Shown here piece by piece: positions 4,971-18,792 of a stretch of 64,000 bases of DNA. A model generated the notes under the pieces. That model did no database searches and was not told the DNA's origin. It saw only the letters and a program-made list of their open reading frames with translations. The DNA comes from Pascua guehoae (taxonomy: Eukaryota > Basidiomycota > Tremellomycetes > Trichosporonales > Trichosporonaceae), in NCBI GenBank assembly GCA_001600415.1, contig BCJX01000003.1:1373664-1437663 (forward strand), in the 5' to 3' direction. Every line of letters starts with the position of its first letter. Position 1 is the stretch's first letter. The translations under genes and the position numbers were made by a program.

Positions 4971-5201
4971 ATGCCTGTGGTCTTCTCCACGCCCTGCTCC
5001 TCGACGTACTGGCACCAGGCCGTGAACGGCGAGGACACCCTGCCGCTCTGGAAGTTCCTTGATGCCAAAACTGAGACGCCCGTCAACTTCATCCCTCATC
5101 GGCGCGCCAAAAAGGTTGGCTTGGGAGGAACTGAATCCCCAGTTGACGAGAGTGGGATTCGAACCCACGTCCGAAGACTGCGGCCGACACCGAGCAGCTA
5201 G
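4971..5201 (+). CDS. possible gene remnant beside the split tRNA
   Basis: A frame from an ATG at 4971 reads about 50 codons with strong C/G third positions (start MPVVFSTPCSSTYWHQAV) up to about 5120. It then runs into the antisense of a tRNA half, where it cannot be meaningful. It may be a truncated gene or chance. I recognise no family. Confidence 0.2.
   Translation: MPVVFSTPCSSTYWHQAVNGEDTLPLWKFLDAKTETPVNFIPHRRAKKVGLGGTESPVDESGIRTHVRRLRPTPSS
5144..5182 (-). pseudogene. 3' half of a leucine-type tRNA gene, interrupted
   Basis: Read on the minus strand from 5182 it gives the anticodon-stem 3' strand CGCAG, a variable arm TCTTCGGAC, a perfect T arm (GTGGG, TTCGAAT, CCCAC), the acceptor strand TCTCGTC and discriminator A. 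The 5' half is missing here, but a complementary one lies at 8984-9021 on the same strand. Its acceptor strand GGCGAGA pairs with TCTCGTC with one G-U pair. The discriminator A and arms resemble tRNA-Leu of the CAG type; the isotype is inferred. Confidence 0.75.
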
Positions 5202-5272
5202 CGCAACGCCGACGCCACCGCCGAGAAGCCCACGCCGAGAGCTACCGCCAGAGCCAACAACCATGCCGGAAG

Positions 5273-6343
5273 ATGGCTCCGTCGACGAGATCGGCGCTGA
5301 AGAAGATTTGCGCCACCTCACTAAAAAACGCACAGACCCTCCGAAACTTTGACACCCCGCACACTGCCGACGACAATACTGACACCGACGCGCAGCGAGC
5401 GGTGCCCTCCCCCCACCCCCCGCAAGCGCTGGTCGAAAGAACGGCGTCCAGGCCCCCCTCCACGGTCGAGACCATCGACATCGACGGTGACATCATCTTT
5501 AGCGCTCTGGCCATCTGCGACCTCTCTGAGTCGACGACGCCGACAAGCACTGCACACGCAGTAGAGCGCACTCGCAACCCCAGCACACCTCTGCAGAGCC
5601 GTGCGCCCTCCCCTGCACCCGCCGAGGCTGCCGATGCACCCCCCACCACCTCCACTGAGGCCACCGGCAACCACATCGCCACTGGTGGCAATGCTATCAC
5701 CCTCAACCTCTCCCCGCACCGCTCCTGGGCCGACGTTGTCGCCTGCCACCCACCTATCGGGTGGCACACCTCGTGCGGTGAGCGCACCACTGCACCCCTC
5801 CCCCACCGCCCTCCGCACGCCGTCGCCGACAGCCTTCCCCGCCGAGGCCTGGCCAACCTTCTCGCTCTGCAGCGGCCAGCCACCGCCGCCGCCCCCAGCC
5901 TTCCACGTCACCCCCTCCCTCCCCGCCCGCAATCGCCGCCCAGACGGCGCAGCAGCCATCGCTGCGGCCGCCGAGGCGGCCGCCGCGCACGTGAGTGGCG
6001 GGAGCACACCCCTGGCCATACGCACTCTCAGGTGCACACCGAGCCTACCCAATGGCAGCGTGCAAGCCCCCCGCACGTCCCCCATGGGCCCGAGCGCCGC
6101 GCGGACCCTCCCCATGCCCCCAGGGCCCCCAGCCTCGGCCTCGCCGGCCGCGCCGATGTCCTCCGGGCCATTGCGCAGGCCCTCGACGCCACGGACACCC
6201 CTACGCGCGACACTGTCGGCTCCACAGCTCTCGGCGTCGCGCGTGCCCTCATCCACGGCCTCACTGCCGTTGCGCGCCGGCACCCCACAGCCGCTGGCCT
6301 CACCCTCCACCTTGCGAGCGCTGCCCTCGGTGCCGACTGCTGA
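5273..6343 (+). CDS. N-terminal region of the retrotransposon protein
   Basis: An ATG at 5273 opens a 356-codon frame rich in Pro, Ala, Ser, Thr and Arg with strong C/G third positions. The last 70 residues before the TGA at 6341 look folded and alpha-helical (for example RADVLRAIAQALDATD). The reverse transcriptase continues in the next frame from about 6345. So this is either a first ORF with downstream frameshifting or, more simply, the 5' part of one ORF broken by an indel. I see no zinc finger of the kind found at the R2 N-terminus. Confidence 0.55.
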   Translation: MAPSTRSALKKICATSLKNAQTLRNFDTPHTADDNTDTDAQRAVPSPHPPQALVERTASRPPSTVETIDIDGDIIFSALAICDLSESTTPTSTAHAVERTRNPSTPLQSRAPSPAPAEAADAPPTTSTEATGNHIATGGNAITLNLSPHRSWADVVACHPPIGWHTSCGERTTAPLPHRPPHAVADSLPRRGLANLLALQRPATAAAPSLPRHPLPPRPQSPPRRRSSHRCGRRGGRRAREWREHTPGHTHSQVHTEPTQWQRASPPHVPHGPERRADPPHAPRAPSLGLAGRADVLRAIAQALDATDTPTRDTVGSTALGVARALIHGLTAVARRHPTAAGLTLHLASAALGADC

Positions 6344-6344
6344 G

Positions 6345-8939
6345 CCCACCTCCTCTGTGCTCGCCTCAGATGGCGTCTCTGGGGCCGCGCTGCTTGCCTA
6401 CCCTCTGTGCCACCGCTTGCCGAGCTCTACCGCCATCCGGCGAGCCTTCAAGTGCGCCGCTAGGCGGACGGCCTCGGCATATCTTGCCAACAAGTCAGAG
6501 CGCAACCTCCAAGCACTCCTACTCCTCCCCAAGCTCGGCCTTGCCACCAATGGCAACACTGCCGCCATACGCGCCCACCTTGATGCGTACCCTCACCTCC
6601 CAACTCCCCCACCACCTACACGGGCCGCTGGTAGCAGCAGCCCGCAGCACATGCTGGCCCCCCTCTTGCGTGCGCAGCGCCTTGTGCGCGCGGGACGGCT
6701 AGGCGCTGCTGCGTGCGCCCTCACGCCGACTGCGCTTGCCTGCGGGCAGGCAGTGATTGATGCTCTCGAGGCCCTGCACCCGCAAGGGCCGATGAAGCCA
6801 TTCATGGCTGCACTGGCGCGGCCGCCACAATCCCTGCCCGACGCCGACCTGGTCCTCACTGCCCTCGCCACCTTTGACGCCGGCATGGCTGCAGGGGTGG
6901 ACGGGTGGACCGTACCCCTCCTCAAGGTCGCCGCCAAGGCCGACGAGGTGCACAGAGCCCTTGTCACGCTCTTTGGTGCGGCCTCAGCTGGCGACGCTCC
7001 ATGCCGTGACCTCCTATGCACAGCCATGCTCACACCGCTAGCCAAGGCCGGTGGCGGCGTGCGTCCCATCACGGTAGGCTCACTAGTCTACAGGCTTCTT
7101 GCCAAGATGGCGCTCCGTGCCCTCCCCCTCGGCCCAAATGCGCTGCACCCATGGCAGCATGGTGTTGGCACGCCTGGCAGGGTCGAGCCCGCCCTAGGGT
7201 GGCTGTGGGGCCACCTTGACGCACCACCCGCCGAGGCCGAGCGCGTCCTCACGCAGCTCGACTTCAAGAATGCGTTCAATGCGCTAGACCGCTGCCTTGT
7301 CGCGCAGGGTGTCCGCGAGCACGCGCCGCAGCTGTACCAGTTTGTGCACTGGGCGTACAATGACCCCTCCGACCTCCTGGTGCGGGGCGACACCGGTGGC
7401 GTTGCCACTCTCTCCTCGACACAGGGAGTGCGACAGGGTGACCCCCTCGGCCCCGCGCTCTTCTCCCTTGCCATTGCGACCCTCCTCGGTGACCTGAGGG
7501 ATNCNCTNGGCCCAGAGTTNGACCTAGTCGCNTACCTAGATGATATCCACATCATTGGGCCCCAGGACGCACTCAATGAGGTCGCCACCTTCCTCGAGAT
7601 GCGCCACAACCCCCTTACCCTCAATCCCCACAAATGCAAGGTCATGACGCTCGACGAGGTCCGCGCACATGGTATCGAGGCCCTTGGTGCTGTCGTCAGC
7701 GGCCCAGCCGAAGTCCGACGCGCCTTCCTCGAGAGCACAATTGAGGCCGAGCAGCCTGCACTTGATTGCCTCGGTGCGAGCCTAGGCACCCAGGAGGCCC
7801 TCCTCCTCCTGCGGACTTGCCTACAGCACAATACGGCCCACCTGCTGGGCACCCTTGACCCTAGGGGGCTGGAGGATGCCTGGAGAGAGTGCGACAGTGA
7901 CCTCGCACATGCCCTGGCCGTTGTGCGTGGCCCCCCACCTAACCACCTTGCCAATGTCCTCAAAGTAGACGAGACTGTCGATGCCGATATACGAGCACTC
8001 CCTGCAAGGCTCGGCGGTCTCGGACTCTTATCGCACATTGAGCGCGCCACCCTTGCACATGAAGCGGCACGCGAGACAGCGAGATGGACCCTCATGGACG
8101 AAGAAGCTCGCGGTACGCGGCCACTGCTGCAACGGGCCCGCCACGCACCCCTGCTCGCCGAGCGCCACAAGCGGCTATGGGACTGACTCGACACGCCGCG
8201 CTGAGCAACGCTGCTCGAGAGCGCATCTCTCCTTGGCCGCCAATGGCTCTCTACTATCCCAACGGAGCGTGTGCTCACCATCCCCGACGAGGGTGTGTCC
8301 CTCACCCTCTACACACGCGCACTTGCAGGCCCCGAGGCCGCTGCTGCATGCGGGGCCTGCCCGACCAGAGCGATCCGCTATGGCCATGCAGACACGTGCA
8401 TGCACGACGGGATGCGCGCAGCACGCACCCGCGCACACGAGAGCATCAAATACGCCCTCAAGCGTCTACTAGACGGCATCGCAGGCAAGACGCAAGTTGA
8501 GCTGTGCATCGGCAGCCAGGAAGGTACTGCCGAGCTCCGCAATGACCTATGGGTTGTGCCCGCCGCCAGTGGGGCCCTGCTGCCTACGCCGTTCGAAGTA
8601 GATGTCTCCGTGACCTCCCTGACCACCAGCGATGCCGACAAGGCCATATGGAGGTTTGCGAGCGAAGTCGGCGATGATGCCACAGGCGTCGCGGCCGCCA
8701 CCAAGCACATCCTCGAGCGCGCAGCAGCCACCAAGCGCAAAAAGCAGCCCGGGGACCTCCCCATGATGCGCTTCATCCCCTTTGTCCTCTCGGCCGGTGG
8801 CGTCATGCACGCTGAGGCCGAGGGCGCAGTCCGAGAATGGCGCCGCCTAGCGGACTGCCATGAGCTCAGCCTTGCCCTCAACCACATATCCTGCAAGCTC
8901 CTCATGCGTCGTGTCCTCGACAGGCCCATCGTGGCCTAG
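6345..8939 (+). pseudogene. reverse transcriptase, zinc knuckle and restriction-like endonuclease region of the retrotransposon, with in-frame stops
   Basis: It copies element RNA into DNA at the target nick. Reverse transcriptase landmarks in order are GVRPITVGSLVYRLLAK, motif A TQLDFKNAFNALD, motif B GVRQGDPLGPALFSL, and motif C YLDDIHI with its Tyr codon at 7533. After the in-frame TGA codons at 8184-8186 and 8202-8204 the same frame resumes. It then shows a CGAC...H...C knuckle at about 8355-8400 followed by RNDLWVVP, FEVDVSV and RFIPFVLSAGG, in the order of the R2-like C-terminal endonuclease. Five Ns at 7503-7532 fall just before the catalytic box. They suggest that reads from several near-identical copies were merged. 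The product is probably inactive in this copy. Confidence 0.8.
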
Positions 8940-8983
8940 ACGCACTAGTTAGATGTCCTAGTAGAGCACCTACATAGCCGCCG

Positions 8984-9021
8984 CTGAAACCCAGCGCCTC
9001 AGAATGCTAGGCCATCTCGCC
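8984..9021 (-). pseudogene. 5' half of the interrupted leucine-type tRNA gene
   Basis: Read on the minus strand from 9021: acceptor strand GGCGAGA, TG, a D stem GCCT/AGGC around a 9-nt loop, G26, a CTGGG stem strand and TTTCAG, which resembles a Leu-CAG anticodon loop. The acceptor strand pairs with the 3' half at 5144-5182. The D loop lacks the usual GG, consistent with decay after interruption. Confidence 0.7.
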
Positions 9022-9346
9022 GAACACGTGAATGTGGCAGCCTGGTGCGGGTCGCGCGGGCCGGTGTCCGGAATGAATTTAATTTTCTGCCTGCCTAATG
9101 CGTGCCGGCATGCATACAGAGGCTCAGCGCATGCTTGGGATGGCGGACAGGACACTGGGTGAAAAGATAGGCGAGAAAGGCTGGTTGTGAGCCGTCGCGG
9201 CGATATTGTTGAACCACACCCGCCAGGGAAAGCACTTGGTCCAACCACCAAGCAATTGTTCTCAGTGCTGGTTATCGTCCAAACTGACCATCTGATGACC
9301 GGTACACCATCTCACAGCGCTGTGCAGTTCTCACCGAAATTGTCTC

Positions 9347-9432
9347 ATCGCTATGGCTTAGTGGGAAAGCGCCAGGCTCATATCTTTACAGATGGAACCT
9401 GGAGATCGCAGGATCGAAACCTGCTGGCGATA
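9347..9432 (+). tRNA. initiator tRNA-Met (CAT) with a short intron
   Basis: Acceptor ATCGCTA/TGGCGAT pairs fully. The D stem is GCTT/AAGC, the anticodon stem CCAGG/CCTGG with loop CTCATA plus one base, and the T stem GCAGG/CCTGC. Initiator features are the A1:U72 pair and the AUCGAAA T loop in place of T-Psi-C. A 14-nt intron follows position 37. The mature length is about 72 nt before CCA. Confidence 0.9.
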
Positions 9433-18692: not shown

Positions 18693-18792
18693 NNNNNNNN
18701 NNNNNNNNNNNNNNNNNNNNNNNNNNNNNNNNNNNNNNNNNNNNNNNNNNNNNNNNNNNNNNNNNNNNNNNNNNNNNNNNNNNNNNNNNNNN
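18693..18792. other. assembly gap of exactly 100 N
   Basis: N run flanked by long G tracts (18600-18692 and 18793-18800). The round length suggests a placeholder, so the true distance and the reading frame across it are unknown. Confidence 0.98.

Follow-up and report, generated by a model that had tools for sequence, protein, structure and literature searches.

Organisation of the interrupted tRNA-Leu gene

The stretch of the Pascua guehoae genome analysed here (64,000 nucleotides of contig BCJX01000003.1, hereafter the window) contains a 3.8-kb non-long terminal repeat (non-LTR) retrotransposon of the R2/CRE type, with a reverse transcriptase (RT) and a restriction-like endonuclease of the R2 fold, which lies between two pieces of leucine tRNA (tRNA-Leu) sequence. 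A preliminary description, made from the letters of the window alone, had placed these pieces at 5144-5182 and 8984-9021, both on the minus strand and in the order of a tRNA gene, with one RT-encoding element between them. This arrangement was confirmed, as was the pairing of the acceptor strands at all seven positions, one of the pairs being G-U. The features of the locus are listed in Table 1. The window copy is decayed, given the in-frame TGA stops between the RT and endonuclease parts. Five single Ns lie within the RT region (7503-7532), and a gap of 100 Ns is present at 18693-18792. A tRNA-Met gene of 86 bases, probably with an intron given its unusual length, is located at 9347-9432 (+), 326 bp from the interrupted tRNA-Leu gene and on the opposite strand.

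Table 1. Features of the interrupted tRNA-Leu locus in the window
Feature	Position	Strand	Remark
3' trailer of the interrupted tRNA-Leu gene, hairpin-like conserved stretch and T5 run	5107-5143	-	Family-wide repeat 5107-5183
tRNA-Leu 3' part: CCGCAG of the anticodon stem, variable arm, T arm, acceptor, last base	5144-5183	-	
Non-LTR retrotransposon, its sense strand antisense to the tRNA	5184-9009	+	Common to three genomic loci
RT open reading frame (ORF), 861 amino acids, RVT_1 at residues 482-692	5601-8186	+	Pfam
Stretch between RT and endonuclease parts, two in-frame TGA (8184, 8202)	8184-8204	+	
C-terminal CCHC and restriction-like endonuclease domain, in the RT frame, TAG stop at 8937	8205-8939	+	
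3' end of the element; last part (8984-9009) an antisense tail resembling the tRNA-Leu 5' half	8931-9009	+	8931-9021 the same in all three copies
tRNA nucleotides (nt) 1-12 (GGCGAGATGGCC), common to target and element tail	9010-9021	-	Same in canonical genes and element copies

Copies of the element and the tRNA-Leu family

In the 33.6-Mb assembly the element was found in three copies, namely the window copy (on contig C3), C7:337408-341280 and C15:963654-974704. All three lie antisense between tRNA-Leu pieces and have the same junction pattern. When 508-1000 bp of the outer flanks were compared, they had in common only the 34-41 bp of a trailer that is present throughout the family, the rest being chance-level short matches. 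Since nothing but this trailer is shared, three separate tRNA-Leu genes carry the element. The two flanks of the C15 copy resemble one another, with neighbouring tRNA genes on both sides. This copy is broken by what appears to be a nested LTR retrotransposon, a stretch of 8,035 bp (C15:964215-972249) that has an RT match at 967403 and terminal repeats of 617 bp with 98.5% identity; the copy was compared at its two ends only, about 840 bp of the element being missing.

The 38-mer of the tRNA-Leu 3' half gave 51 exact and three one-mismatch matches in the genome, the window copy included; 11 further matches with three mismatches represent another tRNA family. A 5'-half pattern, in which the positions differing between element and canonical types were left free, matched 55 times (52 canonical and three of the element type). 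Fifty-one of the 54 3' halves were paired with a normal 5' half and form intact genes, and the three unpaired ones are exactly the three element loci. Four 5' halves were unpaired: those of the element loci and a canonical one at C3:65124 (L098), which has long poly-C flanks with C runs replacing its 3' end and looks like an assembly artefact. Because all three copies occupy this one site and no other 3' halves are unpaired, the insertion appears to be site-specific for a redundant tRNA-Leu family. The preliminary description had suggested as much, and had proposed a comparison of the flanks of other copies; these copies were indeed found inside tRNA-Leu genes, at the same site and with unrelated outer flanks.

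The anticodon was read in 41 intact genes (AAG in 38, CAG in three) and is followed by a short intron; one additional tRNA-Leu gene reads TAG. The trailer of the interrupted gene (5107-5143), which is GRGGATTCAGTTCCTC-like, hairpin-capable and ends in T5, is of the type shared by these 41 genes, 40 of which have the T5 run. The element might recognise this conserved trailer as part of its target. The spacing between the two halves of intact genes is 48-55 bp in 50 of the 51 genes and 75 bp in the other. The first genome scan yielded 1359 tRNA candidates, 63 of which were scored; the genome is possibly very rich in tRNA genes.

Genome-wide, 55 RVT_1 matches were obtained. ARAGORN called no tRNA at five further RT loci (0/5), where tRNA halves were not searched, so that additional families with a specific target may be present. 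Two of these five, L094 (4633-4788, -) and L095 (4814-4969, +), showed only short matches to the endonuclease end (40-42% identity, E 8e-8 and 5e-7), and may be a domesticated gene or what is left of other families. RT matches are clustered in short stretches on C3, C4, C6, C10, C11, C16, C20 and C26, some of them at contig ends, as in retrotransposon-rich centromeres or subtelomeres.

The tRNA-derived 3' tail and the junctions

The two pieces had been taken for the halves of one tRNA-Leu gene cut at the anticodon. This stands for the 3' piece: 5144-5181 has no mismatches to the family 38-mer and is unchanged across all three insertions, and 5144-5183 is most simply target DNA. The 5' piece, in contrast, begins with GGCGAGATGGCC; the sequence after it does not vary among the three element copies and is absent from all 52 canonical 5' halves. 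In an alignment of 8984-9021 to the tRNA-Leu 5' half, nt 1-12 were identical and nt 13-37 agreed at 17 of 25 positions. The latter likeness was significant on shuffling (p 1.5e-5 and 5e-6), and its score was reached at 2 of 127,950 window positions, the tail included. The changes relative to the canonical half include transversions, and the GG of the D-loop (TAGCATTCTG in the element-type 5' piece), which is the end of the RNA polymerase III (Pol III) A box, is lost. As these changes are fixed in the three copies and absent from the canonical halves, while the sequence is still tRNA-like, the tail can be assigned to the element: beyond nt 12 the 5' piece is a tRNA-derived tail that the element carries, and not simply target.

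Besides the three elements, a 30-mer of the tail (up to three mismatches) hit one canonical gene. With an 18-mer (up to two mismatches) the three elements and two other places were found, neither of the latter being followed by tRNA sequence. A tRNA-derived short interspersed element was considered and rejected, as such an element would have a tRNA-like head with A and B boxes and many non-autonomous copies, whereas here the likeness to tRNA is 3'-terminal and lacks the A-box GG, and exact tail copies are confined to the three elements. At the gathering score, Rfam recognised only two ordinary tRNAs in the whole window. With an E-value threshold, 5100-9060 gave three sub-gathering matches: one to tmRNA (E 2.1e-5) covers the tRNA 3' half, the other two have E 0.24 and 0.84, and no hepatitis delta virus-like ribozyme is among them. 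The proposal that the joined halves would score as a class II tRNA proved uninformative, since 106 of the 112 joins made from 8 x 14 end points were read by ARAGORN as a tRNA of one kind or another, among them Leu, Ala, SeC and Gly. For the exact join of the two pieces it reported a tRNA-Ala (77 bases), an outcome that argues against two halves of one tRNA-Leu. ARAGORN also misses intron-bearing tRNA-Leu genes in this genome and called none on L099, which holds one.

On the trailer side, the element can no longer be told from the tRNA once the 3' strand of the anticodon stem (CCGCAG) is reached, and here a break at the anticodon, as described previously, was retained. It does not apply to the leader side, where nt 13 to the anticodon stem are missing or replaced. 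Judging from the leaders, which differ among the copies, the 3' junction would lie within 9010-9021 or at most two bases outside. Because the insertions carry the letter of the element at nt 13, the primer end, and with it this junction, is most likely at or before tRNA nt 12 and not at the anticodon. A single gene simply cut in two is thus not supported as an explanation of the pieces: each insertion would have replaced about 34-41 bp of target (D-loop, anticodon and intron), 61 bp for the odd gene, or more if the junctions lie further out.

Divergence between copies

The window and C7 copies are 6.5% different (225 transitions and 21 transversions). Over 5183-8928, 172 of 939 CpG columns and 74 of 2796 other columns differ, which has the appearance of C-to-T decay. 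The ends of the C15 copy differ from the window by 13.6% and 7.1%. The last 91 nt (8931-9021) are identical in all three copies, with a C15 mismatch at 8930. At CpG-corrected rates the chance of no change was 0.010 for window-C7 (93 nt) and 0.003 for window-C15 (91 nt), values that are suggestive only, the boundaries having been picked after the mismatches were seen. The tRNA 3' piece is likewise unchanged (chance 0.06).

In the RT, 47 of the 122 transitions between window and C15 are nonsynonymous against a null expectation of 75.1 (standard deviation (s.d.) 5.0), and none of 2000 simulations was as low. This pair diverged under purifying selection, so that coding function was kept between at least two insertions. 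The endonuclease parts are intermediate (30/60 against a null of 37.1, 74 of 2000 simulations; 18/35 against 23.8, 44 of 2000).

Relationships of the element

Pfam identified RVT_1 with an E-value of 2.3e-16. Five R2 sequences in PDB matched (best E 8.4e-5), R2 proteins being the only significant matches there. A C-terminal CCHC motif and a PD-(D/E)XK-like endonuclease of the R2 fold are present, the element is without LTRs, and no repeats occur at its ends beyond the tRNA pieces. By these sequence features, it is classified as an R2/CRE-type (restriction-like endonuclease) non-LTR retrotransposon. No peptidase match (the NeSL/Utopia protease) was obtained in the three ORFs searched, the N-terminus of the decayed copy being undefined. 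The nearest named protein relatives are three Cryptococcus proteins, which we take to be Cnl1, and one of Berkeleyomyces. In a 61-row RT tree, which held no CRE1, SLACS or R2 reference row and in which the composition of the window row was flagged as unlike the alignment, the element was sister to P0001 (100/99; the next fork was weak, 82/39), with the Cryptococcus proteins elsewhere among the same relatives. The telomere or spliced-leader target of the CRE clade was not found here, the target being tRNA-Leu. This mismatch is not taken to exclude membership, as targets vary within endonuclease-type clades, yet the element is not filed as a CRE member.

The fungal CRE-type elements Cnl1, MoTeR1 and FoTeR have the same layout of RT and CCHC/endonuclease (PMC12857005), but are described as telomere-associated (PMC12857005, PMC12810828). 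FoTeRs are reported to be flanked at both ends by telomeric motifs (PMC12857005), and CNL1 to have also entered a reporter gene (PMC12810828). NeSL-1_TV (tRNA-Pro), LIN15_SM (tRNA-Arg) and LIN25_SM (tRNA-Glu) are tRNA-gene-specific non-LTR elements related to the NeSL clade (PMC4640811); they share this specificity and the endonuclease type with the window element, but belong to another lineage, other hosts and other tRNAs, and the excerpted text of that paper describes no tRNA-half tail for them. Animal R2 has the R2-fold endonuclease in common, but 28S rDNA as target. A tRNA-Leu gene target is reported for Dada-tL_DR, which is however a DDE DNA transposon with target duplications, and Dewa of zebrafish is reported to sit in a tRNA-Leu spacer and not in the gene (PMC3706591).

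Proposed mode of insertion and alternative explanations

We are fairly confident that this element is a site-specific R2/CRE-type retrotransposon that inserts antisense into tRNA-Leu genes. In the mechanism that we propose, its endonuclease would nick the strand with the tRNA sense at nt 12 or earlier. The 3' end released by the nick (...GGCGAGATGGCC) would pair with the element RNA, whose 3' end (GGCCATCTCGCC) is complementary to it, and serve as primer for target-primed reverse transcription. The far end of the cDNA would be joined at the anticodon stem, on its 3' strand, perhaps through homology to the 3' half of the tRNA, whereby D-loop, anticodon and intron would be replaced. We give the priming role of the tRNA-derived tail about an even chance. 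For R2Tg it is reported that reverse transcription requires annealing of the RNA to the nicked strand over no fewer than 4 nt of 3' homology, and that 5' homology aids insertion (PMC12222951). More tentatively, the captured antisense tRNA half may serve as a 3' homology guide in the element RNA, so that the RNA partly sets the landing site and each insertion swaps D-loop, anticodon and intron. A tail without the A-box GG could keep the host tRNA machinery from antisense transcription into the element. The host can tolerate the insertion because about 51 sister tRNA-Leu genes remain.

The main rival is a single insertion into a mutated tRNA-Leu gene, after which ectopic gene conversion between members of the tRNA-Leu family produced the remaining copies, the tracts terminating within shared tRNA sequence. 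It would account for junctions inside family-shared sequence and for an altered 5' part that travels together with the element. The RT differences between window and C7 also fit it: 45 of 78 are nonsynonymous (null 46.6, s.d. 4.0; 777 of 2000 simulations), so that this divergence looks neutral and the pair alone is no proof of separate retrotransposition. We nevertheless consider gene conversion unlikely, given the purifying pattern of the RT between window and C15 and a protein that resembles those of site-specific elements. In addition, the leader side shares only 12-14 bp, which is short for recombination. Insertion without sequence specificity, the tRNA genes being met by chance or through Pol III factors as in TRE5 and Ty3, is highly improbable. 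Elements guided by such factors do exist, but TRE5 and Ty3 are described as inserting outside the gene in a distance window (PMC5911963), whereas all three copies here share a single site within the gene, and in a single tRNA family. The 55 genes of 90 bp make up about 1.5e-4 of the genome, and three hits by chance would have a probability of about 3e-12.

Site-specific insertion is also compatible with a variant in which the protein alone selects the site and the tail is a passive relic of captured target. We regard this as possible, though rather doubtful. Although it has drifted beyond nt 1-12, the tail is still recognisable as a tRNA 5' half, and three copies are few for demonstrating constraint; on the other side stand the 91 nt that are identical in copies differing elsewhere, and the exact match of nt 1-12, the potential primer pairing, although these may be target DNA in each copy.

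Besides the neutral window-C7 divergence, several observations weigh against the explanation that we favour. Only three copies and a single genome were compared, and both copies that were read wholly or nearly so bear stops or frameshifts. The cut sites are bracketed: towards the leader the cut may fall anywhere from nt -2 to nt 12, towards the trailer anywhere between CCGCAG and the 3' end of the tRNA, and with the latter bracket the element could in principle carry the tRNA 3' half too. The tail forms hairpins when pieces of 32 or 45 nt are folded, and a piece of 85 nt folds otherwise.

The open-licence literature surveyed, Repbase being outside the search, showed no CRE-type element that lies in tRNA-Leu genes and has a tRNA-half tail. 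Endonuclease-type elements targeting tRNA genes are already known; what is new here is the Cnl1-like lineage (presuming that the Cnl1 link is correct), the tRNA-Leu target and the tRNA-half tail. Through this element, the targeting of tRNA genes that is known from endonuclease-type retrotransposons would reach into a fungal lineage in which the members described are associated with telomeres, and the element would show how target specificity can shift. Its invariant tRNA-derived tail makes the role of RNA target homology in site choice testable, which bears on R2-type gene-insertion tools.

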